Below, piece by piece: positions 15,274 to 60,096 of a DNA stretch of 64,000 nt; position 1 is the first letter of the stretch; each line of letters opens with the position of its first letter. Source of the stretch: Thiocapsa bogorovii (GTDB lineage: Bacteria; Pseudomonadota; Gammaproteobacteria; Chromatiales; Chromatiaceae); assembly GCF_021228795.1 (NCBI RefSeq), contig NZ_CP089309.1:5081501-5145500 (forward strand), read 5' to 3'. Position numbers and translations under genes: made by a program. A model generated the notes under the pieces. The model was not told the DNA's origin and ran no database searches. It was given only the letters and a program-made list of their open reading frames with translations.

Positions 15274-15355
15274 AACCGCGTCCGGGGCGATCACCACGGA
15301 TCCCTGTGGTGGGCGGCCCTGGCTGAGCCGGGCGGTTCGGCCCGGACGCGGTTTA
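15274..15355. repeat. ~85-bp palindromic repeat, type 1 (copy B)
   Basis: Left arm TAAACCGCGTCCGGG pairs perfectly with right arm CCCGGACGCGGTTTA; the repeat is 82 bp. The interior can form a smaller hairpin (CACCAC...GTGGTG). It lies between aceE and aceF. Confidence 0.85.
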
Positions 15356-15375
15356 GCCATAGATTTTAGATGTCC

Positions 15376-15460
15376 TAAACCGCGTCGGCCGAGCGCTTCG
15401 TAGAACCTTGTATGTCGGTAGGTTCACCGAAGCAACGCGTGTCATGCCGGACGCGGTTTA
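15376..15460. repeat. ~85-bp palindromic repeat, type 1 (copy C)
   Basis: TAAACCGCGTC pairs with GACGCGGTTTA, 85 bp apart end to end. It follows copy B after a 20-bp AT-rich linker and ends 8 bp before the aceE stop codon, so it lies in the aceE-aceF spacer. Confidence 0.85.
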
Positions 15461-15467
15461 GCGCGGT

Positions 15468-18122
15468 TCAGATCGTCACCGGGTTGGGTTTTTCCGGGTC
15501 GATACGGTATTTCCGAATGGCCTCGGAGACCGTCGCGGTCGGGATCTCGCCCTCGTCCGCCAATGCCTTGAGTGCGGCGACGACGATGTAGTAACGATTC
15601 ACCTCGAAGAATTTTCGGAGCTGGCTGCGCATATCGCTCCGCCCGAAGCCGTCGGTCCCGAGCACCAGGTAATGGCGCGGGATGTAGGGGCGGATCTGAT
15701 CGGCGTAGGTTCGGATATAGTCGGTGGCGGCAATGATCGGACCCTGGGTCCCGGCCAGCTGCTCCTCGACATACGTGGTTCGTTGGGGCTGGTCGGAGTG
15801 GAGCATGTTCCAGCGCTCCACATCGATGCCCTCGCGCCGCAGCTCGTTGAAGCTGGTGACGCTCCAGACATCGGCGCCGACGTTGAAGTCCTTGGCGAGC
15901 AGCTCGGCCGCGGCCAAGACCTCCCGCAGGATGGTCCCGGCGCCGAGCAACTGGACCCGGTGGGTATGCTCCTCGCCCTGATGAACCCGATACATGCCCT
16001 TGAGGATCCCGGCCTCGGCGCCCTCGGGCAGCGCCGGCTGAACGTAATTCTCGTTCATCGCCGTGACGTAGTAGAAGACGTTTTCCTTCTCCCGATACAT
16101 GCGGCGCAAGCCATCCTGGACGATGACGGCGAGCTCGTAAGCGTAAGCCGGATCGTAAGCGACACAGTTCGGGATGGTCGCGGCGACCACCATGCTGTGG
16201 CCGTCCTGATGCTGCAAACCCTCGCCGGCGAGCGTGGTGCGTCCGGCGGTGCCGCCGATGAGGAAGCCGCGCGCCTGCATGTCGCCCGCCGCCCAGGCGA
16301 GATCCCCGATGCGCTGGAATCCGAACATCGAGTAGTAGATATAGAAGGGGATCATGCTCTGACCGTGGTTCGCGTAGGCGGTGGCCGCGGCGATCCAGGA
16401 CGACATGGCTCCCGCCTCGTTGATGCCTTCCTGCAGGATCTGACCCTTCTTGTCCTCCCGGTAGTACATGACCTGATCGGCATCGACCGGCTCGTAGAGC
16501 TGTCCGATCGAGGAGTAGATGCCGAGCTGTCGGAACATGCCCTCCATGCCGAAGGTGCGTGCCTCGTCCGGAACAATGGGGACCAGGTACTTGCCGATCG
16601 CCTTGTCGCGTACCAGGATGGTGAGGATGCGCACCAGCGCCATGGTGGTCGACATCTCCTTGTCGCCGCTGCCTTCCAGGAGCGGCTTGAAGGCATCCAG
16701 CTCGGGGATCGGCAGCACGGCGGCCTCGTCGCGACGCGCCGGCAGGAAGCCGCCGAGCCGCTCTCGGGCCTCGTGCATATATTGCATCTCGGGGCTGTCC
16801 TGAGGTGGCTTGTAGAAGGGCGCGGCGCCGATCTGGTCGTCCGAGATCGGAATATTGAAGCGATCACGGAAGGCCTTGAGGTGCGTTTCACCCATCTTCT
16901 TCTGTGAGTGGGTGATGTTCATTCCCTCGCCGGCCACACCCATGCCGTAACCCTTGACCGTCTTGGCCAGGATGACCGTCGGCTTGCCGTTCATGCGCAT
17001 GGCTGCGTCGTAGGCCGCGTAGACCTTGGCCGGGTCATGACCGCCGCGGTTCAGGCGCCAAATGTCCTCGTCGGTCATGTTGGCGACCATCTCCTTGAGC
17101 TCTGGGTACTTCCCGAAGAAATGCTCGCGGGTATAGGCGCCGCCCTTGGCCTTGTAGGCCTGGTAGTCGCCGTCGACACATTCTTCCATGCGCTTCAGGA
17201 GCAAACCCTGCTTGTCGCGCGCGAGCAAGGGGTCCCAGTAACTACCCCAGACGACCTTGACGACGTTCCAGCCGGCGCCGCGGAAGACCGCCTCCAGCTC
17301 CTGGATGATCTTGCCGTTGCCGCGCACCGGGCCGTCAAGACGTTGCAGGTTACAGTTGACCACGAACACCAGGTTGTCGAGACGCTCGCGCGCCGCAAGA
17401 GAGATGGCGCCCAGCGATTCGGGTTCGTCCATCTCGCCGTCGCCAAGGAAGGCCCAGACCTTACGCTCGCTCGTGTTGACCAACCCGCGATCGTTCAGAT
17501 AGCGCATGAAGCGCGCCTGATAGATGGCCATCAGCGGACCCAACCCCATCGAGACGGTCGGGAACTGCCAGAAGTTGGGCATCAACCAAGGGTGCGGATA
17601 CGAGGACAGGCCGTTGCCGTCGACCTCCTGGCGGAAGTTGTAGAGCTGCTCCTCGCTGATGCGTCCCTCCAGAAACGCGCGTGCATAGATGCCGGGCGCC
17701 GCATGGCCCTGGAAGAAGATGAGATCACCGCCGTGATCCTTGTCGCGCGCACGGAAGAAGTGGTTGTAGCCTACGTCGACGAGGGTGGCCGAGGAGGCGA
17801 AGCTCGAAATATGGCCGCCGAGCTCGGTCGAGAGCCGATTCGCTTGAACCACCATCGCCATCGCGTTCCAGCGCACGAAGGAGCGAATGCGCCGCTCCAT
17901 CGCGCGATCGCCGGGGAAGCGTTCCTGCTGCTGCACCGGAATGGTGTTCACGTAGGCGGTGTTGGCGGTGAACGGGAGATAAGCCCCCGAGCGGCGCGCC
18001 TTGTCGATCAGTCGCTCAAGCAAAAAATGGGCGCGCTCGACGCCTTCGTTCTCGAGCACGGCATCGAGCGAATCGAGCCATTCCTGTGTCTCTTGGGGAT
18101 CGATATCGGGCTTGTTGGTCAT
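15468..18122 (-). CDS. aceE: pyruvate dehydrogenase E1 component (homodimeric type)
   Basis: 884 residues, typical of the single-chain gammaproteobacterial E1. It decarboxylates pyruvate with thiamine diphosphate and reductively acetylates E2. The ThDP motif begins at GDGEMDEPES and runs to NCNLQRLDGPVRGNGK. The N-terminal WLDSLDAVLENEGVERA is characteristic of AceE, and SSFASSATLVDVGYNHFFR and GLQHQDGHS are conserved active-site regions. It is the first gene of the aceE-aceF-lpdA cluster; a 475-bp upstream region should contain the promoter. Confidence 0.97.
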   Translation of the reverse strand: MTNKPDIDPQETQEWLDSLDAVLENEGVERAHFLLERLIDKARRSGAYLPFTANTAYVNTIPVQQQERFPGDRAMERRIRSFVRWNAMAMVVQANRLSTELGGHISSFASSATLVDVGYNHFFRARDKDHGGDLIFFQGHAAPGIYARAFLEGRISEEQLYNFRQEVDGNGLSSYPHPWLMPNFWQFPTVSMGLGPLMAIYQARFMRYLNDRGLVNTSERKVWAFLGDGEMDEPESLGAISLAARERLDNLVFVVNCNLQRLDGPVRGNGKIIQELEAVFRGAGWNVVKVVWGSYWDPLLARDKQGLLLKRMEECVDGDYQAYKAKGGAYTREHFFGKYPELKEMVANMTDEDIWRLNRGGHDPAKVYAAYDAAMRMNGKPTVILAKTVKGYGMGVAGEGMNITHSQKKMGETHLKAFRDRFNIPISDDQIGAAPFYKPPQDSPEMQYMHEARERLGGFLPARRDEAAVLPIPELDAFKPLLEGSGDKEMSTTMALVRILTILVRDKAIGKYLVPIVPDEARTFGMEGMFRQLGIYSSIGQLYEPVDADQVMYYREDKKGQILQEGINEAGAMSSWIAAATAYANHGQSMIPFYIYYSMFGFQRIGDLAWAAGDMQARGFLIGGTAGRTTLAGEGLQHQDGHSMVVAATIPNCVAYDPAYAYELAVIVQDGLRRMYREKENVFYYVTAMNENYVQPALPEGAEAGILKGMYRVHQGEEHTHRVQLLGAGTILREVLAAAELLAKDFNVGADVWSVTSFNELRREGIDVERWNMLHSDQPQRTTYVEEQLAGTQGPIIAATDYIRTYADQIRPYIPRHYLVLGTDGFGRSDMRSQLRKFFEVNRYYIVVAALKALADEGEIPTATVSEAIRKYRIDPEKPNPVTI

Positions 18123-18598
18123 GATGTTTCCCGGAAGCGGTCGAAGCGGTCGGCACGGGCAAAGCGCGGATTATACCAGCGCTCCGAGTCTGCAATGCTA
18201 AGAATGTAGGTGGTCAATGCACGTCGGGACGGAGGCAGCCTCCAGCTTTCAGCCTTCAGTCTCCAGCCTCCAGCGATCAGCCGCCGGCCTTTCGGTGAGC
18301 GCGCCGCAAAGCGCCGGGGCGCCGGTGTAAAACCGCACGACTGTCTCGTACTGGATCCGGTTCGTGTGGAAACCCCGTCGGGCTCGCCCTGGACCTGCGG
18401 CGCCTGCTGGCCGTGTGAAGGGTCGTCGGCGCTCGCGATGCCGCCTTCAGATTCATCTATCCGGCGGCATGTCCGGGCTTTTCCCGGTGTCTTTTCGGTC
18501 CGTTGTTTGGGCCTTGATGGCGCCTTAAGTCGGGTCTCGGACGACGTCGCGTTGACGCGCGTATGTTGCGAAGTGCAGCCGCTGTCTCGTTCGAGGTT
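18123..18598. other. intergenic region upstream of aceE
   Basis: About 475 bp between aceE and the CWC-domain gene. It holds the heptanucleotide repeat at 18236-18284. No credible gene was seen in the remainder. It should carry the aceE promoter. Confidence 0.5.
18236..18284. repeat. heptanucleotide tandem repeat (CAG(C/T)NNN)x7
   Basis: Seven consecutive 7-bp units each start with CAGC or CAGT (for example CAGCCTC, CAGCTTT, CAGCCTT, CAGTCTC). The same CCTCCAG core occurs at 40204 and 60661. Confidence 0.75.
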
Positions 18599-18826
18599 TC
18601 AATCGGCCGCTTGGCGATCGACGTCCGATGCGCCGCGCTCGCTGCACAAGCGGTTGACCTGCTCCAGACAGGTCACGCAAAGACAGTCCCGATACCGGTC
18701 TCCGAGGTATTCGAGCGCCTCCGCGGTAAGCACGACGCTCAGGCATCCGCATCGCTCGACCCGGTTTGCTTTGCATTCGAAGCTGGATCCGCAGCGCGGA
18801 CAGGTCTTCATCTCGTGCTTGCCCAT
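18599..18826 (-). CDS. small cysteine-rich CWC-type zinc-ribbon protein
   Basis: 75 residues with eight cysteines. CPRCGSSFECKA is followed by RCGC and then CLCVTC and LC. This spacing resembles the cysteine-rich CWC family, small proteins of unknown function that probably bind zinc. ATG at 18826 starts MGKHEMKTCPRC; the frame stays open upstream to 19096 but loses this character. A weak GAGAG lies at SD distance. It is divergent from cbiZ. Confidence 0.7.
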   Translation of the reverse strand: MGKHEMKTCPRCGSSFECKANRVERCGCLSVVLTAEALEYLGDRYRDCLCVTCLEQVNRLCSERGASDVDRQAAD

Positions 18827-19094
18827 GCGCGTTGCTCTCGCTATCCGTGTTGGCGGGTGGATTGATCGACCGTCTTTTCGGTGTGGCCGAATGATGGGGC
18901 ACAGAACCCGGTAGACGGATCCACTGATGCAGGTGATTTGCACACAACCAGAGTCTACACCCTCGCCGCGACACCTCGCAGACCCGTATGCGCCGTCTTC
19001 GTTGCAGCCGCGCCGTCGCTTGCGATAGCCTCGCGCGGCTGTCGCTCCGTCGCGCGATGGCCATCCATCCCCGTTTCCGTGATCGAGGTCCCGC

Positions 19095-20294
19095 ATGTTG
19101 CTCGAAGAGACCGACCGTTACGCCCTGCATCGGCAGGGGCGCTATCTCGTCGTTGCCTTCGCGCGCCCGCATCGCGTGCTCGGCACCTGTCGGGTCAACG
19201 GCGGGATGTCCGAGTCGCTGACCCATCTCGCGAACCATCAGAGTTGCGAGGGCGTGGCCCATTTGGCGCGCTACGAGGCGGTCCTGGGTCTCGGAGCCCT
19301 GGACTATCACGCACGAAGCTGCTCAGAAGCCGGGCTTCCGCCCGAAACGACGGCCCTGATGGGGACCGCCGCCAACATGCAGTGCGCGGTGGTGGCGCAC
19401 GCGAGTGCAGAGGATCTTCGCGCGACGGTGGTCGCCACCGCCGGGGTGACCGGCAACGCCGTTCGCGCGGGTGATCCGGCCGCTTGGCACGAGGAGGCCG
19501 AGGGCAGCCGTCCCGCTCGTCGCGGGCGTTCCGCGGAATCGGCCGATCAGCCCGGATCCGAGGGCGAGAACGTCCACGATCGACCGCCCGATGAGTCGGG
19601 CTCGGGGACCATCGTCACGCTGGTCCTGCTCAATCGGCCCTGTACGCCCGCATGCCTGGTTCGTGCGGCGACCATGGTCACGGAGGCGAAGAGCACGGCT
19701 CTGCTCGACCTGCGTATGCCCAGCTTGCAATCGCGAGGCCTCGCGACGGGCACCGGGACCGATCAGCTCGCCATCGCCGCCCCGTTGGTCCGCGCGGACG
19801 AATGGGAGCGTCACTGGGCGGGCGGTCACAACACGCTGGGCGCGTTGCTCGGGCGAGCGACGCACGACGCCGTCACCCGCTGTTTGCTGCTGCAGAACGG
19901 CATCGTTCCCGAGCTCAGGCGAACCGTCTGTGCGGCCTTGAGCCGTTTCGGTTGCGACGAGGCCGCGCTGCGGGCTTGCGCCGAGTCCGAGCTGGATGCG
20001 CCGGGCGCGGCGGTCTTCGCCGCGAATCTCCAGGCCATCGTCCATGATCCGCACAGCGCCGCCGCAGCCTATGGCCTAGCCGAGATCTTGGACCTGGTGC
20101 GCGCCGGGGTGCTGCACGCGGAGGTTGCGCGCGAGGCGATCCTAAACCAGGCGGCGTTGCTCGGAGCGGCCGTCGCCGTGAAACCCGAGCGGTTCGTCGC
20201 GCTGCGCAAGGAGCTGGTACCGCATCAAGGGTTGCCGGACGGACGCTTGGCCGCGCTCGCTGTCGTTCGGGGTTTCGCTCGCAAATGGGACTGA
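19095..20294 (+). CDS. cbiZ: adenosylcobinamide amidohydrolase CbiZ
   Basis: 399 residues. CbiZ removes the aminopropanol side chain of adenosylcobinamide to give adenosylcobyric acid, letting cells salvage cobinamides. Family segments are NGGMSESLTHLANHQSCEG, MGTAANMQCAVVAH, ATAGVTGNAVRAGDP and the late GLATGTGTDQLAIAAP. Between the third and fourth lies an apparent polar insertion of about 35 residues (around 135-170), rich in Glu, Arg, Ser and Pro. The stop overlaps cbiB by 10 bp. CbiZ and CbiB together form a salvage step that could feed the B12-dependent ethanolamine ammonia-lyase encoded 15 kb away. Confidence 0.88.
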   Translation: MLLEETDRYALHRQGRYLVVAFARPHRVLGTCRVNGGMSESLTHLANHQSCEGVAHLARYEAVLGLGALDYHARSCSEAGLPPETTALMGTAANMQCAVVAHASAEDLRATVVATAGVTGNAVRAGDPAAWHEEAEGSRPARRGRSAESADQPGSEGENVHDRPPDESGSGTIVTLVLLNRPCTPACLVRAATMVTEAKSTALLDLRMPSLQSRGLATGTGTDQLAIAAPLVRADEWERHWAGGHNTLGALLGRATHDAVTRCLLLQNGIVPELRRTVCAALSRFGCDEAALRACAESELDAPGAAVFAANLQAIVHDPHSAAAAYGLAEILDLVRAGVLHAEVAREAILNQAALLGAAVAVKPERFVALRKELVPHQGLPDGRLAALAVVRGFARKWD

Positions 20295-21250
20295 CCGAGC
20301 ATCTCGCACTCATCCTCGCGGCCTGTCTGCTGGACGTCTTGATCGGGGATCCCGTCTATCGTTTTCATCCGATTCGGATCATCGGGGCCTGGAGTCTCGC
20401 CTGTGAGCGCCTCTTGTTTGCCGTCGGGTTGAAGGGGCGGGCCGGCGGCGTCCTGCATTGGCTGCTGGTGGTCGGGGGCGCGTTGGCGGCCTGGTGGGGC
20501 GTTCGAGCCGGTCTCGGCGTGCTGCACCCGTGGGCGGCTTTTGGCTGGGATGTCTTCATCGCCTACAGCCTGATTTGTACCCGCGACCTCCTGGACCACG
20601 GACGCCGGGTGCTCGAAGCGCTCGACGATCTCCCGCAAGCCCGCGCGCGGCTGCGAATGCTGGTCGGTCGCGATACGGATCACTTGGAGCGCGACGGCAT
20701 CGTACGTGCGACCGTCGAGAGCCTCTCCGAGAATCTGACCGACGGGGTTCTGACACCCCTGTGGGCGCTCTGTCTCTTCGGGCTGCCGGGTCTGATTCTG
20801 GTCAAGGCGGTGTCGAGTCTGGATTCGATGGTCGGCTACAAGAACGAACGCTACGGCCGGTTCGGCTGGGCCGCGGCGCGCTCCGACGATCTCGTGCATT
20901 GGCTCCCGGCACGGCTCTCGGTCCCCTTGATCGCGGCCGGGGCGGCACTGCTCAAGCTGCACCCGCGGCTGGCCTTCCGCGCCGCGCGCGACTATCACGC
21001 GATGCTCCCCAGTCCGAACTCAGGCTGGAGCGAGGCCGCCTGCGCCGGCGCGCTGCGGGTCAGGCTGGTCGGTCCGATTCGCTACGGAGGGGCTCTTGTT
21101 ACCGAAGACTACATGGGTGATCCGGATTGGCCGGCCGATCTCGGGGGGGCGGACCTCGAGCGCGCGCTGCGTCTGATCCTCGTGGCCTGCTTCTTGGCGC
21201 TTCTCGTCGGGATGGCGGTTGCGCCGCTGCGAACGGTTCTGCCATGGTGA
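20285..21250 (+). CDS. cbiB: adenosylcobinamide-phosphate synthase CbiB/CobD
   Basis: 321 residues, integral membrane protein. It attaches aminopropanol (or its phosphate) to adenosylcobyric acid. Landmarks are the N-terminal LDVLIGDPVYRFHPIR, GRDTDHLERDGIVRATVESLSENLTDG in the middle, and YKNERYGRFGWAAARSDD. Several hydrophobic helices and a late VEDYMGDP-like segment (VTEDYMGDPDW) agree with the family. It overlaps the end of cbiZ by 10 bp, indicating co-translation. Confidence 0.93.
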   Translation: MGLTEHLALILAACLLDVLIGDPVYRFHPIRIIGAWSLACERLLFAVGLKGRAGGVLHWLLVVGGALAAWWGVRAGLGVLHPWAAFGWDVFIAYSLICTRDLLDHGRRVLEALDDLPQARARLRMLVGRDTDHLERDGIVRATVESLSENLTDGVLTPLWALCLFGLPGLILVKAVSSLDSMVGYKNERYGRFGWAAARSDDLVHWLPARLSVPLIAAGAALLKLHPRLAFRAARDYHAMLPSPNSGWSEAACAGALRVRLVGPIRYGGALVTEDYMGDPDWPADLGGADLERALRLILVACFLALLVGMAVAPLRTVLPW

Positions 21251-21313
21251 AGGTTCTGCGCGGCCGGTGACGTGAGCTGCCGGCGACCGGCTCGCTCGGA
21301 GCGCAATCTGTTC

Positions 21314-21397
21314 TAAACCGCGTCCAGAGCGAGATGCTCACTTTCGGGTGAGCTCGAAGTTTGATGCATCCATGGCCCTTAGCGGGGACGCGGTTTA
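21314..21397. repeat. ~85-bp palindromic repeat, type 1 (copy D)
   Basis: TAAACCGCGTCC pairs with GGACGCGGTTTA; 84 bp. It is followed after a 24-bp AT-rich linker by copy E, forming a composite pair between cbiB and the TPR gene. Confidence 0.85.
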
Positions 21398-21421
21398 AAA
21401 TTTTCAGGTTTTTTAAGATTT

Positions 21422-21506
21422 TAAACCGCGCCGACTCCAACGGTCGTCAAGTCTGCCGGCGCCGATCCCATCCACAAACATCGCATACCGCGCTGGGCGC
21501 GGTTTA
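21422..21506. repeat. ~85-bp palindromic repeat, type 2 (copy E)
   Basis: TAAACCGCGCC pairs with GGCGCGGTTTA; exactly 85 bp. The interior is shared with copies F, G (inverted) and I (same orientation), including GTCTGCCGG, GCCGATCCC and AAACATC. It ends 22 bp before the TPR gene start. Confidence 0.88.
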
Positions 21507-21528
21507 GTGTTCAGGTCTCGAGGTTCTC

Positions 21529-23463
21529 ATGTCCAAAAAGTCCGCCAAGCCCAAGTCCAAGCCCGCGACGGGCGCCTCCGCCGTGCTGTCCAGTCAGCTC
21601 AAGGCGATCGAGCGTCTGATGGAGCGCCGGGACTACTCGACCGCAGCTCGCCGGCTGCGTGCCTTGATCGAGGCCCACCCGGATCAAAGCGGTCCCAGGC
21701 GCCTGCTCGTGGAGGCGCTGGAGAGTGGCCAGGGAAGCGGCGCTGCGGCCATCGCCGCCTTCGACTGGGCTGAGCGTCGACCAAAGAGCTTGCCTGCGCA
21801 GGAGATGCTCTTTCGGTACGCACTGCAGTTCGGGCATGTCATGTTGGCGGATCGCACCGCAGAGCGGCTGCGTGCGCTCGGTGCCGAGACGCGCGGGTTT
21901 CCGATGGCGCCCGCGATACGCGCGGATCTGCTGCGGCAGCCCGACGGGTCGAGCGCGACCGCCGAGCAGATGCTGCGCTTCGATATCGGAAAGCTCCATC
22001 TGGACGGGCATGATTTTGCCGGCGTGGTGCGTTGGCTGGACGGGGTCGATCTGACGCCGGCCAAGAACAATCGCGCGATGTCGCTGTTCCATCTCGATCG
22101 CATCGAGGATGCCCTGGCGGCCTTCCTGGCGTTTTGGAAGGAGGATCCGGACAACCTCTTCGCCTTGGGATGGGCAGCGCGCTTGCGACTCTATCAGGGT
22201 GACGAGACCGGCGCCCGACGCCTGACGACGCCCTTGGCCGCCGCGACGGCTCGCCGGGTCGAGGATGCCGTGCCCCAGCTCGATGCCCTGCTGCTGCTGG
22301 GCGAGGACAACGCCGCGTTGAGCGCCTTCGCCCGTGTCGAGCGGTCTGATTGGTTCGGTATCGGAGAGCCTCAGCAACAGGCCATGCTGAGCCATTTGGC
22401 CGCCTGCGCGGCGAGTCGGCTGGGCGAGGCAAAACGGGCGCGGGCGCTCTGCAAGGCATCGCTCGAGCGCGTGCCGAATTTCAAACCCGCCCTCGAGAGT
22501 CGCACCGTGATCGACGCCGCGGGCGATGCCCTGGCGTATCCGCCCGTGTTCGGTCTCGGACAGGCGTTGCCGCTGACCTGGCTGAACCGGATGCGTGATG
22601 CCGGGAACGACGCCTTTTCGCACCTCGCGAAGGTGACGGCCTCCAACGACTTTCTCGATGCACTCTATGTCGGCGGCGACGACGGCCTGCGCGGGCTGGT
22701 CGCCTTCATCCTCCAATACCGCGCCGAACAGGGCGATCCGGGCGCGGCCGAGCGTCTGAAACGATTTGCGCGCCTGCCGATCGGAACCAAGCAGACGCGC
22801 TTCGGGTTTCTTCGCACGCTCTACGACAAGGGTCTGCTGCCGCGCGACGAGCCGCTCGAGATGTGGGACGGCGAGCACGTCACGCAGGTCAAGCTGATCA
22901 ACACCGAGATCAGACGCGATCTCGTACCGAGCCATCTTCCCGAGGATCTCGATATGCTCCTCGGACGCTCGATCGAATGTTTCAACACGCGTGACTATGC
23001 GGGCGCGGAGATCCTGCTGAAGCGGATCCTCGAGCACGCCCCCGGTCATCGTGTCGCACTGGGCAATCTCGCCGCGGCCCTCAGCGCCCAGGGTCACGAT
23101 CAGGAGGCGCGAGAGCTGCTTCGCGATGCGGTTGCGCGTCATCCGGACTACATCTTTGCGCGCTGCAACCTGGCTGTCATGCTGATCGAGGACGGTGATC
23201 TCGACGAAGCCGCTCGTTTGCTGGAGGGGCTCTACGAGAGTCCGAGCCTGCACGTGCAGGATATCTTCGTGCTCTACGGCGCACTGGCGATGCTGAGTCG
23301 GGCACGCGGGGATCAGGCTGCCGCGGATGCTCTGATCGCAAATCTCGAGTCACTGGTCGAAGACGAGGACGACGCGCGCCGTCTCGCCCTCGCCAAGCGC
23401 TTACAGGGGCGGGTCAGGCCCGTTGCAGCCAAGGGCGGTTGGTTCAAGCGCTCGGGTGCTTAA
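21529..23463 (+). CDS. TPR-repeat protein
   Basis: 644 residues built of helical pairs. TPR-like units are clear near the N-terminus (RRDYSTAARRLRALIEAHP) and in the last third (NTRDYAGAEILLKRILEHAP, SAQGHDQEARELLRDAVARHP and EDGDLDEAARLLEGL). The first 20 residues are Lys/Ser-rich and no signal peptide is seen, so it is probably cytoplasmic. It likely acts as a scaffold, but the partner is unknown. The stop codon TAA is the first three bases of palindromic copy F, and copies D and E lie just upstream. Confidence 0.8.
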   Translation: MSKKSAKPKSKPATGASAVLSSQLKAIERLMERRDYSTAARRLRALIEAHPDQSGPRRLLVEALESGQGSGAAAIAAFDWAERRPKSLPAQEMLFRYALQFGHVMLADRTAERLRALGAETRGFPMAPAIRADLLRQPDGSSATAEQMLRFDIGKLHLDGHDFAGVVRWLDGVDLTPAKNNRAMSLFHLDRIEDALAAFLAFWKEDPDNLFALGWAARLRLYQGDETGARRLTTPLAAATARRVEDAVPQLDALLLLGEDNAALSAFARVERSDWFGIGEPQQQAMLSHLAACAASRLGEAKRARALCKASLERVPNFKPALESRTVIDAAGDALAYPPVFGLGQALPLTWLNRMRDAGNDAFSHLAKVTASNDFLDALYVGGDDGLRGLVAFILQYRAEQGDPGAAERLKRFARLPIGTKQTRFGFLRTLYDKGLLPRDEPLEMWDGEHVTQVKLINTEIRRDLVPSHLPEDLDMLLGRSIECFNTRDYAGAEILLKRILEHAPGHRVALGNLAAALSAQGHDQEARELLRDAVARHPDYIFARCNLAVMLIEDGDLDEAARLLEGLYESPSLHVQDIFVLYGALAMLSRARGDQAAADALIANLESLVEDEDDARRLALAKRLQGRVRPVAAKGGWFKRSGA

Positions 23464-23545
23464 ACCGCGCCAGGCGCGGTATATGGTGTTTTTGGATGGG
23501 ATCGGCCCCGGCGGACTTGACGTGTGTTGGAGCTGGCGCGGTTTA
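23461..23545. repeat. ~85-bp palindromic repeat, type 2 (copy F)
   Basis: TAAACCGCGCC pairs with GGCGCGGTTTA; 85 bp. Its interior is the reverse complement of copy E. The first three bases are the stop codon of the TPR gene. Confidence 0.88.
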
Positions 23546-23654
23546 AGGTGATTTCGGGGAAAGGAACTACCGGCAGAGCCGAACCAAAAAGCGCTCGAAG
23601 GCTCTGCTCGGCGGTTTGCTTGAGACTTGTGACGTCAGGTGCTGGATGCCTTCC

Positions 23655-23673
23655 GGGCATGCGCAGTCGGGAT
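23655..23673. repeat. 19-bp exact repeat, copy 1
   Basis: GGGCATGCGCAGTCGGGAT occurs here and again at 40390-40408. In both places it lies at or just beyond the 3' end of a minus-strand gene. Confidence 0.7.
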
Positions 23674-24968
23674 CACTCCGATCCGGCGAGACGCCGCTTG
23701 ATCCGTCTGAGTCCGAACCAGGCGAATCCGATTACGAAGGGTAGGGCGATCCCCATCCAGAGCGCGGCGTCGATCGGCGCGCCGCCGCTCTGCAGACCCT
23801 TGAGTGCGTATCCGATCAGGCCGACGCCGTAGTAGCCGATCGCAATCACCGACAGTCCTTCGACCGTCTCTTGCAGGCGCACCTGCAGATGGGCGCGGCG
23901 ATCCATAGACTCCAGCAGCCGCCGATTCTGCTCCTGCAGCGAGACATCCACACGGGCGCGCAGGAGGCTGGTGATGCGGGCCGCGCGCTCGGCCAGATCG
24001 TGTTGGCGGCGTTGGGTCGCCTCGCAGGTCGCGACCGCCGGGGCCAAGCGCGCGTCGAGGAATTCGGACAGGGTCTGCAGGCCTTCGATCCTGTTTTGGC
24101 GCAGCTGCTCGAGCCGCTGTTGGATCATCCCGTAGTAGGCCCGCGAGGCATCGAAGCGATAGGTCGTTCTGGCCGAAACCGCCTCGATATCCGCGGCGAG
24201 GCTGGTCAGCTCGCCCAGCAGCTCGCTCTCGAAGGCCGGCTGATCGGATGCGCCTTGACTCGACAGGCGCGATGCCACCATCGCCAAGCGGCGATCGGCG
24301 TCGCTGAGCGCTCCAGACACGCTTCGCGCCAGAGGAAACCCGAGCAGGGCCATGGCCCGATAGGCGTTGATCTCCAAGACACGTTTGGCCAGTCGCCCGG
24401 CCTGATTGTCGGACAGACCGCAGTCGCGCAACAGGATCCACGAGTACCCGTCGGCATGGATCTTATGGTCCGACCAAGCACGCCCTGCACCCCCGACCAC
24501 TTCCGATCCGATGACCGGGTTACCGTCGAAGAGCGCGACCAGCTCCTCGTTGGCGCGTTCGGGCTGATTGCAGGTCTCGATGGCCAGCGAGGTGGCGGTG
24601 ATGACCTCGCCGGGCAGCTCGCGCAGCCAGTCCTGCGGCAGATCGTCGAGCAGCGGCTCGGCGAACGGGTGAACGAAGGCGCCGCGTTTGCTGAAGGTGT
24701 AGGTGACGAACTCGGTATGACGTTCCCAACGCAGACGCATGGGTCCGAGGTCGGTCCAATAGTGTTGATCCACCGTCTCCGGGATCGGTAGCCCGAAGTG
24801 CGACAGCAGCCGCTTCAGGTGCTCGACGTTGCGACCGCTCCCGCGCTCCCCGGAAACCGCAGCGAGGTGCGACACACGCTCGGGCGCGCGCAGCGGCTCG
24901 AAGGTCCGGGCGTGCAGCTCGTCGGTGACGACATGACGGAGCCGATGCTCTTTGAAGGGGAGTGACAT
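23673..24968 (-). CDS. DUF3422-family membrane protein
   Basis: 431 residues. The N-terminal KEHRLRHVVTDELHARTFEPL and the following WERHTEFVTYTF are typical of DUF3422, an uncharacterised proteobacterial family. A helical, probably coiled-coil stretch (about 250-370) precedes two C-terminal transmembrane helices (VEGLSVIAIGYYGVGLIGYAL and MGIALPFVIGFAWFGLR). It is probably an inner-membrane protein with a large cytoplasmic N-terminus. Function is unknown and context is uninformative. Confidence 0.85.
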   Translation of the reverse strand: MSLPFKEHRLRHVVTDELHARTFEPLRAPERVSHLAAVSGERGSGRNVEHLKRLLSHFGLPIPETVDQHYWTDLGPMRLRWERHTEFVTYTFSKRGAFVHPFAEPLLDDLPQDWLRELPGEVITATSLAIETCNQPERANEELVALFDGNPVIGSEVVGGAGRAWSDHKIHADGYSWILLRDCGLSDNQAGRLAKRVLEINAYRAMALLGFPLARSVSGALSDADRRLAMVASRLSSQGASDQPAFESELLGELTSLAADIEAVSARTTYRFDASRAYYGMIQQRLEQLRQNRIEGLQTLSEFLDARLAPAVATCEATQRRQHDLAERAARITSLLRARVDVSLQEQNRRLLESMDRRAHLQVRLQETVEGLSVIAIGYYGVGLIGYALKGLQSGGAPIDAALWMGIALPFVIGFAWFGLRRIKRRLAGSE

Positions 24969-25145
24969 GCCGTGATGATCCTTGTTGGGCAGCGCGAGTG
25001 TAGTCGGCGGTTGTGACGAAGACGAGTCTCGCTCCCGGCTCGATCGTCGTTAGCAGGTCGATCGCGCTTGTCCTAATCTTTTGCCGGCCGCGCAGGCGCG
25101 CGTGGGCGTTCCGGGCCGTAGCCTCTTGCTCGGCATTCTCGGGAG

Positions 25146-25322
25146 TCAGCTCACGCCCTGACCGGCGTCGGTCTCCGGCAGGTCGCCCTCGGGCTGCTCG
25201 ACATCTGTCGCTTCGGATTGGGTGCTGCTGTTTTCCGCCCTGCGTTTCTGCTTCTCCTCTTTTTTCTTTTTCTTTTGCAGGTCGCGCTGACGTTTTTCGA
25301 ACGCATAGTTTGTCTTGGCCAT
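25146..25322 (-). CDS. small lysine-rich hypothetical protein
   Basis: 58 residues: MAKTNYAFEKRQRDLQKKKKKEEKQ then an acidic tail. The basic N-terminal half looks like a conserved small protein seen in many proteobacteria (MAKTN(Y/F)xFEKRQ pattern, from memory). It may bind nucleic acid, but this is untested. ATG at 25322 gives the conserved start; an upstream ATG at 25331 adds three residues. Confidence 0.65.
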   Translation of the reverse strand: MAKTNYAFEKRQRDLQKKKKKEEKQKRRAENSSTQSEATDVEQPEGDLPETDAGQGVS

Positions 25323-25416
25323 CGTCATCATCTCGCGATTCGGTGCCGCGACAGTCGAGACTGCCGGGCCCCGTCAAGAGGTTGGGGAAGGGATCGCGTG
25401 CGTCGGATCCCATTTT

Positions 25417-25501
25417 TAAACCGCGCCAAGCGCGGTATGCGATGTTCTTGGATGGGACCGGCCCCGGCCGACTTGACGGCCGCTGGAGCTGGCGCGGTTT
25501 A
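25417..25501. repeat. ~85-bp palindromic repeat, type 2 (copy G)
   Basis: TAAACCGCGCC pairs with GGCGCGGTTTA; 85 bp, same orientation as copy F and reverse of copies E and I. Confidence 0.88.
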
Positions 25502-25605
25502 GGGTGATCTTCGAGCGTAACAGCATCCGCTCGATTGCTCTACTCAGGAGGGGGTTCTCGCACGGCGGAGCGGCCATGAGCGACGGCGATCGACCGTTCC
25601 GCGTT

Positions 25606-25645
25606 CCGCCCCGTTCTCTTGGGTGCCGCCCCGTTCTCTTGGGTG
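25606..25645 (+). repeat. 20-bp tandem duplication
   Basis: CCGCCCCGTTCTCTTGGGTG occurs twice in direct succession, followed by CCGCC. Probably a slippage product. Confidence 0.7.
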
Positions 25646-25756
25646 CCGCCGCGATCGTCGACGCCCGCCATCCGTCGAAAGGGCGGGAAGTCATACGCTT
25701 GTCACGGCCATCTGCGATGCTCCCGGCCATCCGTGGCTGATTCGGGGGCAGGTAAA

Positions 25757-26026
25757 TTGGAACGCTTTGCAGATGAGCTCGACCTTACGCAGTTTCGAAT
25801 CGATCAGCTGACTGCACTGGCAGTCGCCGCAATGCGTGATCAGGCAAGCCGTGTTGCAGGTCGCGAGCACTGTCTCGACTGTGGCGATATGATTCCTGCG
25901 AAGCGTTTGACATGTGTGCCGAACGCGACTCGCTGCGCACCCTGCCAGGATCGCGAAGAGCGTCTTGGTCGTGGCTTCGTGCCTGGCGCGCTGGTTGACG
26001 GGCCCCAGGCTCGTCGTTCCGTGTAA
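25757..26026 (+). CDS. short DksA/TraR-type zinc-finger protein
   Basis: 89 residues from a TTG start with a GGGGGCAGG ribosome-binding site just upstream. A helical DELDLTQFRIDQL segment is followed by CLDCGDMIPAKR and CAPCQDRE, the C-x2-C...C-x2-C finger of TraR/DksA-like proteins. Full-length DksA has a longer coiled coil; this is closer to the short phage- and plasmid-type versions that contact RNA polymerase. The frame extends upstream without coding character. The C-terminal ~20 residues (VPGALVDGPQARRSV) look atypical, so the stop context may be altered. Confidence 0.6.
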   Translation: MERFADELDLTQFRIDQLTALAVAAMRDQASRVAGREHCLDCGDMIPAKRLTCVPNATRCAPCQDREERLGRGFVPGALVDGPQARRSV

Positions 26027-26533
26027 GTCTCGCTGGGGTCGCGTGCTCGCCGCACCAGGAGATTCGCCGGAGGAGTTCTTCGGCGGGATAAGACGGATGC
26101 CGTTGTCGCGGACGCGATCGTCGTCATTTTTTGGCGTCGGAGAGCGGACTCGGCTTCAGGTGCCGGCCGAGTACCTCGTTCCACCTTATTTTGGGTGCTC
26201 AGCGAGGCGAGAAGCGTTCAGCGGCTAGGCGCGCGAGTGAAGGAAGAGTGACCCTCTTTCAAGCTTGCGCAACAACGGCGCTGAACGCTTCTCGCCTCGC
26301 CCTTCGGGAGCCCCCCAAAGGCGCCAGGGCAGCGTTACAGCCCTTGGAAATAGCACCCACTATTCCCGGCGGTCTGTGCCTTGCCCTGACGCCTTTGGGG
26401 GCTCTGAGCATGCAAAATAAGGTGGAACGAGGTACTAGCGTCGAAAGAGCACCCGCGGGTATCGGGCGGCGACATCGGCACACCGTCGGCCTCATACTCT
26501 GCGCCTAGATCCAAGCTCGACGAGCCCCCTGCG
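26027..26533. other. intergenic region containing a 267-bp inverted-repeat element
   Basis: About 500 bp between the DksA-like gene and the esterase at 26534. Most of it is the element at 26170-26436. No gene is convincing here. Confidence 0.6.
26170..26436. mobile_element. MITE-like element with long terminal inverted repeats
   Basis: The ends 26170-26202 and 26404-26436 are inverted repeats: 24 bp perfect, then 7 of 9 matching. Inside lie two more hairpins. 26203-26223 pairs perfectly with 26279-26299 (21 bp), and 26309-26331 pairs with 26382-26403 with one bulge and one mismatch. The whole could fold into a stem with two side arms. It has no ORF of note, so if mobile it is non-autonomous; a structured RNA is the alternative. 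No target-site duplication was visible. Confidence 0.6.
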
Positions 26534-27487: not shown

Positions 27488-27495
27488 GGTCAAAA

Positions 27496-29929: not shown

Positions 29930-29941
29930 GCGGATGAGCCG

Positions 29942-33069: not shown

Positions 33070-33183
33070 TTCGAGAAAGACAATGTTGTGAAGACGAGAC
33101 GTACCGCGTAACGACCTCTGCCGCAGCGGCGGTGCTCGGGCCCGCCGCCGGGATGCGATGGCCGTGATCGAGCCCAAGCGTTG
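33070..33183 (+). repeat. ~110-bp direct repeat R1
   Basis: Shares roughly 110 bp with 35510-35622 in the same orientation. The last 60 bp (from CAGCGGCGGTGCTCGG to CGTGATCGAGCC) are nearly identical. It can form a GGCGG...CCGCC hairpin. R1 and R2 bracket the CHAD-mgtE pair. Confidence 0.75.
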
Positions 33184-35509: not shown

Positions 35510-35622
35510 TTCGAGAAGACCATGTTGTCGAGACGCGGGGTACCCGCGCCGACCTCAGCGGCAGCGGCGGTGCTCGGGCCCGCCGCCCGGATGCGATGGC
35601 CGTGATCGAGCCTACGCCGACG
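35510..35622 (+). repeat. ~110-bp direct repeat R2
   Basis: Second copy of the repeat at 33070-33183, same orientation, located downstream of the mgtE-like gene. Confidence 0.75.
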
Positions 35623-47404: not shown

Positions 47405-47482
47405 GGCCCGTCCTCGTGAACTGAAACTGATGTGCGAAGGCGCCGCGCCCGCATGGGGCAGGGCGGGTGCGCGTCCGCAGGA

Positions 47483-48310: not shown

Positions 48311-48331
48311 GACTGATACCTCGGGATTGGG

Positions 48332-50196: not shown

Positions 50197-50526
50197 GGGT
50201 TTGTATCTGCCTGGATGTGCGTCGATCTGAACGATGGACCTGCGGTCTCCTCAGCCTCGTCGGGCGGATCGAATGCGGTGGCTCCGCCCGTATGGGTCGC
50301 CTGTGAGGGCGATCCGGACGGAGGATCCGCATGGGCGCTCATGCCGGCTCACCCCATGTGAACCGGCGCGCCCCATCCCCCCGACATGCTCCGAAGACCC
50401 GGATCCTGTCCCGCTAAGCAAGGGTTCAACAACAAGTGATCCGACTTGGCCCCTCCCCCCCTCGCGGGAGAGTTTGGTGAGAGGGGAGAACGAACCGGAA
50501 TGGCTCAGTTGTTTTTGAACCGTTAC

Positions 50527-50610
50527 TAAACCGCGTCCAGAGCGACAAGCGTCATTTTCACTTTGTGTCGGGATTAGGGATTTTTCCTAACCTCGTGGAG
50601 ACGTGGTTTA
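50527..50610. repeat. ~85-bp palindromic repeat, type 1 (copy H)
   Basis: TAAACCGCGTCC against AGACGTGGTTTA (one arm partly diverged); 84 bp. Its first 18 bp match copy D. Confidence 0.8.
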
Positions 50611-50633
50611 GAACTTTAGATTTTTTAGAACTT

Positions 50634-50718
50634 TAAACCGCGCCGTCTCCGACAATCGTCGAGTCTGCCGGGGCCGATCCCGTCCAAAAACATCACATGC
50701 CGTACCGGGCGCGGTTTA
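50634..50718. repeat. ~85-bp palindromic repeat, type 2 (copy I)
   Basis: TAAACCGCGCC pairs with GGCGCGGTTTA; 85 bp, same orientation as copy E. The linker from copy H (23 bp, T-rich) resembles the D-E linker. It ends 5 bp before the pstS stop codon. Confidence 0.88.
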
Positions 50719-50723
50719 AAGGA

Positions 50724-51779: not shown

Positions 51780-51874
51780 GAGAAAAAAACCTCCAGGTCG
51801 GACCGTGTCGGGTGTGATGGTCGGGTGTGATGAATCGACCGAGTAAGATTGTCCCGAAAGTGTCTGCCAAATCC

Positions 51875-51903
51875 GTGACGGCGACGTGATGATTAGGTGA
51901 CGG
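51875..51903 (-). promoter_or_regulatory. PHO box array upstream of pstS
   Basis: On the minus strand CCGTCAC-N4-TCATCAC-N4-CCGTCAC: three 7-mers with exact 11-bp periodicity, the outer two matching CTGTCAT at 5 of 7. It ends 95 bp before the pstS ATG, a normal place for a PhoB site. Confidence 0.7.
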
Positions 51904-51932
51904 TTCTGCGAAGGGTTGTGTTTGGCGTGGGC

Positions 51933-52015
51933 TTAACCGCGTCCGGAGCGCTAGGAATCGTTTTCAGTGTGCGTTTGGCTTCGGAGATACCCTTGATCCC
52001 GGTGAGGTTCGGTTT
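51933..52015. repeat. decayed ~85-bp palindrome, type 1 (copy J)
   Basis: TTAACCGCGTCC and, 83 bp away, the weakly matching GAGGTTCGGTTTGG. Interior GAGCG and TTTTCA resemble copy H. It lies between pstS and the yibE/F gene. Confidence 0.5.
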
Positions 52016-52018
52016 GGA

Positions 52019-53215: not shown

Positions 53216-53290
53216 GGATCTGAAACACGAAAAAGGCGCCGCGAAGGCGGCGCCGGGGCGCGGCGGGTTCGATCTAACCCGTCGTTGCGA

Positions 53291-54859: not shown

Positions 54860-54999
54860 TTGCCTTCTCTCTACTTCTCGTCATAGTTGGCCCTGGATGG
54901 ACGGGGCCGGCGGACCGTTCCGGGGGCGACCGAGGTGTCTGGCGCTTCCCGAATGGCACGGAGCAATCTACAGAAAGACCCTTACTTTCTTGTGACAAT

Positions 55000-57900: not shown

Positions 57901-59145
57901 TCTGCGGTTCTCGCGGACCTGCCGGCCGGGCGCTCGGAGGTCACCTGGTCGTCGCGTCTGGAGCCGACCCGCGAGCTGCGCCTCGTCGCCGCCATAGATC
58001 CGCGCCTGAGCGAGGATTGGCGTCTCGACGTGGGACCGCTCTGGCATCTGGAGTACGAGGGTATCGCTCCGATCCACCGTCTGGGTCCGGCCGAGCGCTG
58101 GCTGCCCAACTGGCGACCCCTGCCTGGCGAGACCTTGGTCCTGACCCTGACCCGACCACTGGGCGTCCCGGGGCGAACCTTGACGATCGATCGCGTCGAC
58201 ACACGGGTCGAGCCTGGGCAACGCGGGACCCTTTCGACCCTAACCTTGGAGATCCGCAGCAGCCAAGGCGGAAGCCATGTCGTCCGGTTGCCGGACGCCG
58301 CCGAACCGATCGCCTTCAGCCTGGACGGCCGGAGCCTTCCGCTCCCCGATACGGCGCCGGAAGTCGAGCTGCCGCTGACGCCCGGATCGACCCGGGCCGA
58401 GCTGACCTGGCGCGAGCCGCAACCGCTCGGCCTCGGCTACCGGCCCAATCTGCCTGATCTGGGCAGCACGGCGGTCAACCTGAATCTCTCGCTGAGCCTG
58501 CCCGACGACCGTTGGGTCCTCTGGACTTGGGGGCCACGAATCGGTCCGGCCGTGCTTTTCTGGGGGATCCTTCTCGTTCTGATCGGGCTGGCCGCGGGCT
58601 TGGGTCGCAGTCGTCTGACGCCCCTGCGCATGCACGATTGGCTTCTGCTCGGCATCGGACTCATCCTGGCCGAGGTCTGGGTCGTGCTGCTGGTCATCGG
58701 CTGGCTCTTCGCGCTCGGCCTGCGGCATCGCTTGGACCCGCTTGCCCGTCCGGCCTGGCGCTTCAATCTGATTCAGACGGGGCTCGTGATCCTGACGCTC
58801 TTCGCCCTTGCGGGCCTCCTCGGCGCTGTCCAGCAAGGTCTGCTCGGGACACCCGAGATGCAGATCCGGGGCAACGGCTCGACCGCGACCGCGCTCAACT
58901 GGTATCAAGATCGCGGCGGGCCCGCGCTGCCCGATGTGTGGGTGCTCTCGGTGCCCATGTGGGTCTACCGCGCACTCATGCTCGGCTGGGCGCTCTGGCT
59001 CGCGATGCGGCTGCTGGACTGGCTGCGCTGGGGCTGGGAGGGACTGTCCAAGCCGCTGATCTGGCGCGAGACGGGGGCGTTCGAACGGAAGCGGCCGGCG
59101 GCGAAATCCACCCACGATGCGGAAGAGATGCGTCTGGATCTATGA
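55000..59145 (+). CDS. very large membrane protein of unknown function
   Basis: 1381 residues. A signal peptide (LRHLLLLLLILSAPLRAQ) is followed by a ~460-residue extracytoplasmic region rich in beta strands with many WxR/DGRP-type turns. Membrane helices come at about 490-600, then 695-750, then a second large beta-rich section (about 760-1170) and a cluster of helices at about 1180-1350. The two beta-rich sections share a style (LARLRLEV, PGRHAVRLAG) and may be an internal duplication. Gene order, not homology, is the only clue: the stop overlaps the start of the CrtA-like gene (ATGA). Confidence 0.78.
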   Translation: MPNILRHLLLLLLILSAPLRAQIDAVAEDSGPLGSGPSSSPNIPAALQPWIPWVLEGGPEGQDQRDCPIDPADGARLCAWPGRLELALSGAGGIFAQVWEVFAESAVPLPGGADAWPLGVEVDGAAVAVVQRDGRPTATLATGIHRVTGRFVWDRPPDALLIPPMVGLVELVRDGRAVPTPRLDRTNRLWLGDPAGSETERSGDRLSLEVYRRIQDSLPLEVLTRLRLEVSGGAREVRLGPVLLPGGIPLRIDSPLPARIEEDGMLRVQVRPGRWVVDVMAHHQGDVSELSRPETGAPWPEREIWAFAAEPALRRVEPSGLDAVDPRQTGIPEEWSRLPVYRAEPGAVLRLAEQARGDPDPGRDRLRLDRELWLDFDGKGYSVQDRIGGQLSRGWRLDAGPALALGAVTLDGRPVLITRLNDTASPGVEVRRGILDVVADARLESAPGRVPASGWATEFENVAARLYLPPGWDLLTVQGVDNLPSTWVGRWSLLDLFLVLITTLGIGRIWGWGWALLALLTLGLTWQAPGAPRLIWLHLLAAAALLRLIPDAPVRTGLRRLRSLVTLYFRLALLGLVVIGLPFLVTEVRDGLFPHLERSWAALGDAGSSTRTTAAPPPAFELGRAMDTEAMSKREGLSGALSEPAASIPEPIDLMDPDARLQTGAGIPDWRWNSVDLRWSGPVGERESARLWLLSPTLNLVLSLLGSVLLVLLGLRLAGLVGGRVTHGAGLALLVAVGLGTAVGPGPVSAEDLPSPELLQELRTRLLAPPDCLPHCVDLPLVILAATPDRLVLDLTMDAAVAVAAPVPGGVGGWLPTEIRVDGEPSDGLRQDAAGRLLLMLPAGRHAVRLAGPLASRDQVEIPLPMQPRLIRATVDGWSLEGLDSGGRAGAQVRLVRLSDTGAPHETSLAQGALPPLLRVERTLRMGIDWRVDTRVRRLSPDEFPVLIPVPLLPGESVQTPRVQVEGSAVLADLPAGRSEVTWSSRLEPTRELRLVAAIDPRLSEDWRLDVGPLWHLEYEGIAPIHRLGPAERWLPNWRPLPGETLVLTLTRPLGVPGRTLTIDRVDTRVEPGQRGTLSTLTLEIRSSQGGSHVVRLPDAAEPIAFSLDGRSLPLPDTAPEVELPLTPGSTRAELTWREPQPLGLGYRPNLPDLGSTAVNLNLSLSLPDDRWVLWTWGPRIGPAVLFWGILLVLIGLAAGLGRSRLTPLRMHDWLLLGIGLILAEVWVVLLVIGWLFALGLRHRLDPLARPAWRFNLIQTGLVILTLFALAGLLGAVQQGLLGTPEMQIRGNGSTATALNWYQDRGGPALPDVWVLSVPMWVYRALMLGWALWLAMRLLDWLRWGWEGLSKPLIWRETGAFERKRPAAKSTHDAEEMRLDL

Positions 59146-59894
59146 GCCAAGTCCTGTTCAGCTTCTTTCGCTATCCGATTCGGCAGGTTCCTGGCGCCCT
59201 GCTCCTGATGGGGTTTCAGCGCCTGCTCGCCGGCCGCGACAGGCCCGCCGGCGTTGTCCGGCTGATGGGCTGCGGCAGCGGTGACGGATTCTCGGTGGTT
59301 CCGGATCTGCGTGCCTATTGCCTGATGCGCGTACTCGCGAATCCGAACGACGAGGCACGTCTGCGCCGGAGCCGGTTCTACCGCGCGGTCGCCGAGTCGA
59401 GCAGCGATCAGCTTCACTTCTCGCTGGCGCCCCTTTCCGGGCGCGGAACCTGGGACGGCGAGGCCGTGTTCGACTATCGGGGGGCATCGTCGACGGACCG
59501 GCCGCTGGCGGTCCTGACCCACGCCCGGGTCACGCCGGGGCGGGCGATCGACTTTTGGCGGAGCGTCCCGGGAATCCGCAGCCAGTTGCGCGAGACCCCG
59601 GGCTGCCCCTATCACATCGGATTCGGGGAGGATCCGCTGCTGACGCTGGCGACATTCAGTGTCTGGGACGCTCCCGCGAGCATGCAGGCGTTCGCCTATC
59701 GGAACACCCCGCATCATCGCGCAGGCCGCGCGTCACGGCAGGAGGACTGGTTGAGCGAGTCGATGTTCGTACGCTTCGCCGTCGAGCGTGTCGAGGGCCA
59801 TCTCGAGCGTTATCCCCGCCTCGCGGCGATCCTGGGGTCGCGAGCGCGCCACCCGCAGCATCCCGACAGATCAGTGGAATCTCGGACACAGTGA
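59142..59894 (+). CDS. crtA: spheroidene-monooxygenase-like protein (CrtA family)
   Basis: 250 residues. The sequence follows CrtA along its length: VLFSFFRYPIRQ at the start, RLMGCGSGDGFSVVPDL, SLAPLSGRGTWDG, AVLTHARVTPGRAIDFWRSVP, GFGEDPLLTLATFSVWD and FVRFAVERV. CrtA inserts keto groups into carotenoids in anoxygenic phototrophs. No other carotenoid or photosynthesis gene is in the window, so the substrate is inferred. ATG at 59142 overlaps the stop of the large membrane protein, so the two are translationally coupled. Confidence 0.8.
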   Translation: MSQVLFSFFRYPIRQVPGALLLMGFQRLLAGRDRPAGVVRLMGCGSGDGFSVVPDLRAYCLMRVLANPNDEARLRRSRFYRAVAESSSDQLHFSLAPLSGRGTWDGEAVFDYRGASSTDRPLAVLTHARVTPGRAIDFWRSVPGIRSQLRETPGCPYHIGFGEDPLLTLATFSVWDAPASMQAFAYRNTPHHRAGRASRQEDWLSESMFVRFAVERVEGHLERYPRLAAILGSRARHPQHPDRSVESRTQ

Positions 59895-60010
59895 TATGAC
59901 GGTGGCGTGTCGGGCACGCTACGCTCTACCCAATCTACGAGTAGGGAGTTTTTTGAAATGGGTCAAGCGGATGTCTGGCACGGAAAACTCTAAAAATGCT
60001 TTTCAAATCC

Positions 60011-60096
60011 TAAAACGCGTCCACCACCGAGCATCTTGGGTCCGCTGAGCGCTATGCTCGCTGCAAGAGATCGAATATCGCTCGGGACGCGTTTTA
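60011..60096. repeat. ~85-bp palindromic repeat, variant (copy K)
   Basis: TAAAACGCGTCC pairs with GGACGCGTTTTA; 86 bp. The arm carries an extra A/T in place of C/G. It is preceded by an AT-rich CTAAAA segment and lies just past the 3' end of fabA. Confidence 0.75.

Follow-up and report, generated by a model that had tools for sequence, protein, structure and literature searches.

An abundant intergenic repeat of Thiocapsa with the ends of an IS630-type insertion sequence

In the pneumococcus the 107-bp RUP lies between genes and inserts at TA, and its terminal repeats are similar to those of an IS630-family element (PMC2229807, PMC3049150). In 36 of 58 coding sequences that overlap a BOX repeat of Streptococcus pneumoniae, the repeat provides the stop codon at the very 3′ end of the gene, and the account in PMC3049150 gives no strong evidence of truncation. 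Among full-length insertion sequences (ISs), ISY100 gave a normal TA duplication in 34 of 39 products in vitro (PMC2170065), and the title of a paper cited in the same source states that the IS630 transposon prefers CTAG. Here we describe a family of palindromic repeats recognized in Thiocapsa bogorovii, in a stretch of 64,000 nucleotides (contig NZ_CP089309.1, positions 5,081,501 to 5,145,500; hereafter the window).

The repeats are short, non-coding and present in high copy number, their terminal inverted repeats match those of an IS630-type IS, and they have TA on both sides. The IS630-matching ends, taken with outer flanks of the form YTA...TAR, therefore point to a family of miniature inverted-repeat transposable elements (MITEs). 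We put at roughly 0.9 the probability that these are small gene-free MITEs derived from an IS630-type IS, of which a doublet of ~192 bp is the fullest form and single palindromes are at least partly products of deletion, targeted to YTAR with duplication of TA, and often sited at stop codons. Within the window the terminal sequence TAAACCGCG occurs 16 times, against 0.22 expected and a maximum of two among 100 shuffled sequences. The initial annotation had proposed a search of the whole genome and of relatives, and had taken confinement to the window, or an interior and length not conserved elsewhere, as signs that no such family existed. Neither was found: the family is spread over the whole genome and is shared with relatives, and elsewhere too the interior and length are conserved.

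Anatomy and insertion sites of the repeats

The inventory comprises 201 single palindromes and 175 doublets. Over all fetched loci, unit length is 84–86 bp in 330 of the 346 distinct units that carry the long left-end pattern, and under the same filter 127 of the 142 left ends with a partner give 84–86 bp, a further 12 left ends being partnerless. Four subtypes, T1a, T1b, T2a and T2b, assigned by a crude similarity rule, account for 312 of the 346 units, and the other 34 have other interiors. The ends of the 84–86-bp units pair from the first base, and there is no 20–40-bp palindrome with an unpaired GTAG/CGTC tag. At base 10 from the ends there is a T-A pair in 174 units and a C-G pair in 147 (together 321 of 346).

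The fullest unit would be the doublet, whose two outer ends each carry an IS-like terminal repeat of ~32 bp. Total length is 189–194 bp in 163 of the 175 doublets, the linker is 22–23 bp in 137 (median 86% AT), and in 152 the two outer ends differ in type, one T and one C. Long terminal repeats are present at both outer ends, pointing outward, in 134. The single units are less complete: 145 have one long IS-like end, five have two, and in 51 none is recognizable. The copies in the window are as follows.

21314 to 21506, + strand: doublet MITE of 193 bp, with T1a unit 21314–21397, AT-rich linker 21398–21421 and inverted T2a unit 21422–21506; downstream of cbiB, 22 bp ahead of the next predicted gene
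50527 to 50718, + strand: doublet MITE of 192 bp, with T1b-like unit 50527–50610, linker 50611–50633 and inverted T2 unit 50634–50718; the pstS stop codon lies 5 bp away
15272 to 15460, + strand: diverged doublet in the aceE-aceF spacer, with units 15272–15355 and 15376–15460
23461 to 23545, + strand: single T2a unit whose TAA (23461–23463) is the stop codon of predicted gene 21529–23463
25417 to 25501, + strand: single T2a unit of 85 bp; the site is filled in G004
60011 to 60096, − strand (inferred): diverged unit 3 bp from the fabA stop codon, both ends carrying the same change (TAAAACGCG / CGCGTTTTA)
10183 to 10269, strand not assigned: diverged unit absent from the initial annotation and shared with relatives at this position; with its TAA it provides the stop codon of rubrerythrin-like gene 9766–10185
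51933 to 52017, + strand: relic of a T1b unit, right end decayed
7575 to 7660, + strand: weak relic, left end only
10590 to 10674, strand not assigned: doubtful relic, absent from the initial annotation

All nine copies first listed are thus present, the earliest starting at 15272 rather than 15274, and the type-2 copies at 21422, 23461, 25417 and 50634 are each exactly 85 bp, as had been stated. The two proposed relics fare differently: that at 51933 belongs to subtype T1b, and that at 7575 is a weak relic only. The identities of the genes around the two operon spacers, aceE-aceF and pstS-pstC, are backed by NCBIfam. The aceE-aceF doublet occupies this site in the present genome and in the seven other Thiocapsa of its clade; the outgroups G005, G006 and G009 lack it. 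The site of the doublet 50527–50718 is filled in G004; the element is absent there in G001, G002, G005, G008 and G010, in which the left flank differs as well.

Could the 85-bp palindrome itself be the moving unit, the doublets being pairs of separate insertions? The abundance of singles alongside doublets would agree with this, as would the exact-length empty sites found for two single copies (L083 5247 and L287 6895), but the linker is too constant in length and in AT content, the long ends too regularly outward and the outer ends too regularly of unlike type to favor it, and we regard it as unlikely. Moreover one single is clearly a deletion hybrid. At the site of 21314–21506, G004 has a single unit in which the first ten bases are T1 and the remainder T2, as it would be after deletion between direct TAAACCGCG repeats. 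In the MITE reading at least some of the solo 84–86-bp palindromes would have arisen in this way, by loss of the sequence between repeated TAAACCGCG ends.

The transposase would insert the units at TA within YTAR, duplicating the TA. The outer flanks are YTA...TAR in 103 of the 107 clusters that have exact TAAACC / GGTTTA ends (CTAG 31, TTAA 31, CTAA 21 and TTAG 20), as expected for TA-targeting elements of the IS630/Tc1-mariner kind. Fifteen empty sites were found in relatives with both flanks at least 80% identical. In ten of these the core is exactly 4 nt, as predicted for Y-TA-R, and in five of the ten the middle is TA (ATAG, CTAA, GTAG, TTAA and TTAG); TA makes up ~2.2% of intergenic dinucleotides (3318 sites in 152,909 bp).

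The candidate parent insertion sequence

Another Chromatiaceae genome, G135, contains three copies of an IS of 1274 bp, 99.9–100% identical and with an open gene for a 396-aa transposase. Its 5′ end is TAAACCGCGTCCAGAGCG, which agrees with the commonest T1 end at 18 of 18 terminal bases; subtypes T1b and T2a match the IS ends with 76–91% identity over 32–34 bp. A DDE_3 (IS630-type) gene is also found in G006 within an element of 1277 bp, the ends of which, TAAACCGAGCC... and TAAACCCCGCCCAGAGCGGGATACGTAATTTTCAT..., are close to T1b. An open stretch of 317 aa in this element matches the IS630 transposase model NF033545 (155 bits, against a cut-off of 100) and DDE_3. The flanks of five full-length IS copies that could be read at both ends are C-TA...TA-G, i.e. 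CTAG. Three shortened copies keep both ends together with pieces of the transposase.

L334:1339–2282 (G102): shortened IS copy of 944 bp, flanks T...G
L330:1486–2017 (G014): shortened IS copy of 532 bp, flanks C...A
L338:1371–1768 (G135): shortened IS copy of 398 bp, flanks T...G

All eight copies therefore fit YTA...TAR, and from their structure the three shortened ones are possible intermediates between the IS and the MITEs.

The parent was sought with the G135 transposase as query in 16 genomes at E ≤ 1e-20, and no match at this threshold was present in G000, G002, G003, G004, G007, G008, G010, G005, G009, G025, G028 or G031. In G001 a transposase remnant (L343:1296–1874) lies among several MITE ends; 86 residues can be aligned, with two stops, and a 51-residue piece is 78% identical to the parent transposase. 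When orphan ends were paired across the fetched loci, 23 pairs emerged as candidates for an autonomous element. Twelve spans, made up of nine of these pairs and the three shortened IS copies, were searched by tblastn with the G135 transposase, which was contained only in L237 (G006), L330, L334 and L338. The spans in L105, L107, L026, L282, L286, L306 (two) and L317, in which tblastn found no transposase, were set aside, L238 was rejected on inspection, and G000:C1:1296000–1299000 consists of separate ordinary units.

Other IS630-family elements of Thiocapsa were considered as the parent, 30 of 48 DDE_3 matches having been fetched as loci, and those compared have different ends. One such separate element, of ~1.17 kb and with ends TATACCTCATATAGG unlike those of the MITEs, is present at L235, L242 and L248 (G010), at L243, L250, L252 and L258 (G001), and at L255 (G008). 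It is probably recent in G001, because the four copies there are 99.7–99.9% identical.

As to how the family arose, a derivative that was internally deleted or rearranged and retained two outward ends would have spread in an ancestor of the Thiocapsa clade, presumably mobilized in trans by an IS630-type transposase. The parent IS would then have been lost, leaving copies that decay, recombine and persist at gene ends.

Distribution, gene context and stop codons

How general is the family? In this genome, a single contig of 5,649,927 bp, the degenerate left end TAAACCGCGYCNNNNGCG gives 172 matches, and the reversed control gives none. In a survey of 56 genomes (reversed control 0 to 2 per genome) eight Thiocapsa are rich, with 102–633 end matches (G000, which is this genome, 172; G001 499; G002 234; G003 325; G004 301; G007 198; G008 102; G010 633), and three outgroup Thiocapsa are poor (G005 3; G006 1; G009 0). 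The aceE gene is 93–94% identical to that of this genome in the seven other rich genomes, and 83–85% in the three poor ones. The amplification in Thiocapsa is restricted to one clade. Outside the genus G028 has 113 matches, five genomes have one or two and the others none. The genomes that hold the IS or pieces of it have few end matches (G135 5, of which three are the IS copies; G079 0; G102 1; G014 0; G100 9; G006 1). Among the matches listed for named genomes, the exact 18-base T1 end occurs in Thiocapsa spp., Thiobaca trueperi, Thiocystis minor, Candidatus Thiosymbion and a Chromatiaceae metagenome-assembled genome. It was also met in Heliobacterium and Mesorhizobium (L144, L127), where it is judged to be chance because no partner end was found, and these two loci were excluded from the counts of gene context. 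The doublet gave no DNA match in plasmid and phage collections, and Rfam at its gathering score gave no match in the window.

No cluster out of 170 lies inside a gene predicted by our home-made codon-usage gene finder. The earlier statement that all copies are intergenic is upheld in this sense, yet the stop codon of the neighboring gene is often supplied by the element itself. In 162 clusters the setting could be classified, as 97 tandem, 44 convergent and 21 divergent; the other eight were without a predicted neighbor on one side. On sides that face a 3′ end the median distance to the neighbor is 4 bp, and on 77 of 185 such sides the TAA of the element is the neighbor's stop codon, touching 73 of the 162 clusters (45%). 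If insertions were spread evenly over YTAR outside coding sequence the expected share is 15% (82 of 547 sites), so that the observed share is three times the expectation. Copies shared by descent in different genomes each entered the counts, so that the nominal p of about 8e-20 is too small, and the counts and p values in general suggest more independence than there is. In the loci sampled 79 genes end at the element TAA, against six that run farther into the element.

Homologues without the element were found for 17 of the 61 genes that stop on its TAA, and in 14 cases the end codon is the same, so that the protein there is not shortened; the 17 represent about nine different genes, of which eight share the end codon. 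The predicted gene 21529–23463 of the window is an example, in that two homologues without the element end at the identical codon. L176 is an exception, where the gene of the relatives, as read from the sequence, appears to run past the site. TAA and TAG stop codons are themselves YTAR-type targets, hence many copies fall exactly on the stop codon; the element's own TAA then takes the place of the stop, and the length of the protein is usually kept. We tentatively suggest that the YTAR target together with the terminal TAA makes insertion at stop codons silent for the protein, so that stops are a safe harbor and the 3′ ends of mRNAs have been remodeled with hairpins across the clade. The threefold excess would then mean either that the elements actively prefer gene ends or that the new 3′ ends were selected for.

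A number of observations weigh against the derivation of the repeats as TA-duplicating IS630 MITEs. In the other five empty sites of exact length the middle is not TA (CTCG, CAAA, CGAG, CCGA and CGAA), CGAG being shared by two genomes at one locus, and in five of the 15 sites the core has another length, beginning with YTAR in L005, L124 and L297 but not in L151 and L193. By blastn at E ≤ 0.01 subtype T2b does not match the IS, and no similarity to the IS is found in the MITE interiors past the ends. Relatives of the transposase at E ≤ 1e-30 are present in just five of 116 genomes of an even sample of the family, and the eight MITE-rich Thiocapsa, like the MITE-rich G028, yielded no intact parent IS. 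Finally, where a gene ends on the element TAA, homologues without the element often end in TGA. We infer from the empty-site pattern a TA duplication seen through sequence divergence, which falls short of proof, and a later loss of the parent may account for its distribution.

The same gene context might be explained if the repeats were 3′ elements with a function for the host, bidirectional terminators or hairpins for mRNA stability kept by selection, with mobility as merely their origin. The nine window copies do fold as DNA, with z scores of −1.5 to −7.6, and the doublet 21314–21506 as RNA with z = −5.1; the bases 10 from the ends are kept paired; copies lie near 3′ ends with few in divergent spacers (21 of 162); and the aceE-aceF copy has been retained in eight of eight clade genomes. 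However, several type-2 copies fold only weakly better than shuffled sequences, and the transposase too would need terminal pairing. Fully typed doublets show no preferred orientation toward the upstream gene (21 against 20), window positions 15000–26000 have six sites in a simple terminator scan (one within a copy) against 7.6 in shuffled sequences, and three Thiocapsa genomes manage almost without the repeats. The role as terminators or RNA-stability elements suggested in the initial annotation thus gains no support from orientation or the terminator scan, and we consider selection for host function rather improbable. The hairpins, some of which fold strongly, may influence transcripts.

The alternative half of the original classification, a family of repetitive extragenic palindromes (REPs) or bacterial interspersed mosaic elements (BIMEs) moved by a REP-associated tyrosine (Y1) transposase (RAYT), would also place opposed, paired palindromes at gene 3′ ends. 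Such repeats share the genomic positions, inverted doublets, high copy number and orthologous persistence seen here, REP dimers being described in PMC3733652, and this genome has 14 Y1 matches. None of these 14 genes has a repeated 14-mer of the family within 400 bp. Among 20 Y1 loci of relatives inspected, from 86 matches, elements are found at 1.0–1.4 kb in four orthologous loci and in none of the other 16; the four hold orthologues of one RAYT-like gene that is also present in the near-repeat-free G006 and G009. The 85-bp units are moreover TA-flanked with IS630-like ends, for which an IS630-type match was found. A RAYT-driven family is thus very improbable, and it is the MITE half that holds, with IS630-like ends, YTA...TAR flanks and most empty-site lengths fitting a 2-bp duplication. 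Integron attC sites, which follow the RYYYAAC/GTTRRRY rule, were considered and dropped.

In five genomes (L032, L210, L213, L218 and L222) this conserved RAYT-like Y1 gene, found in G006 and G009 too, has a repeat 1.0–1.4 kb upstream, degenerate in L032. The window contains other repeats as well. A 48-nt inverted repeat at 26170–26217 and 26389–26436 has arms that are 81% complementary, 171 nt apart and of 52–54% GC, against 64% for the window, and may represent the ends of another small mobile element. A 68-nt direct repeat (33112–33179 and 35550–35617; 93% identical, 2.4 kb apart) is unlike the TAAACCGCG family, and short AGCCTCCAGC-rich repeats occur at two distant places, 18237–18288 and 60659–60689.

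Relation to known repeat families

Through our analysis an abundant Thiocapsa repeat has been identified and can be assigned a likely parent transposase and a target rule, and mobilization in trans thereby becomes directly testable. The family is also a clear example of stop codons being taken over by a mobile element while the proteins stay mostly unchanged, and for annotators it means that many Thiocapsa stop codons (79 in the sampled loci) are transposon-borne. MITEs may also outlive their parent, given that an intact IS was not found in the eight Thiocapsa genomes rich in them and that IS-bearing genomes have only 0–9 end matches.

Our searches of open-access literature turned up no description of this family, a coverage that excludes most subscription journals. 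Small repeats with terminal inverted repeats, a target site duplication and terminal TA include Correia/NEMIS and ERIC, as tabulated in PMC2229807; they have other hosts and sizes, the comparison being one of description. The GTAG/CGTC REPs, BIMEs and REP doublets forming hairpins (REPINs) are likewise palindromic, paired and mostly downstream of genes, but as described in PMC3733652 REPs measure 20–40 bp, have an unpaired tag at one of their ends and, in the GTAG types, are tied to RAYTs. The Thiocapsa units by contrast are 84–86 bp, TA-flanked and IS630-like at their ends, with no RAYT link found. Full-length ISs such as IS630 and ISY100 insert at TA with TA duplication (PMC2170065), whereas the window repeats encode no transposase.

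The nearest precedent is RUP with IS630-Spn1, likened here from its published description. The host is unrelated, the Thiocapsa repeats form doublets of two palindromes and coincide with stop codons, and an intact parent IS was not found in the MITE-rich Thiocapsa. BOX is, like the Thiocapsa repeats, a small repeat that supplies stop codons, but its size varies and it has been compared with ISSpn2 (PMC3049150). Thus the kind of element is known from RUP and BOX, and the Thiocapsa family itself appears to be new, its most interesting trait being an unusually sharp association with stop codons.

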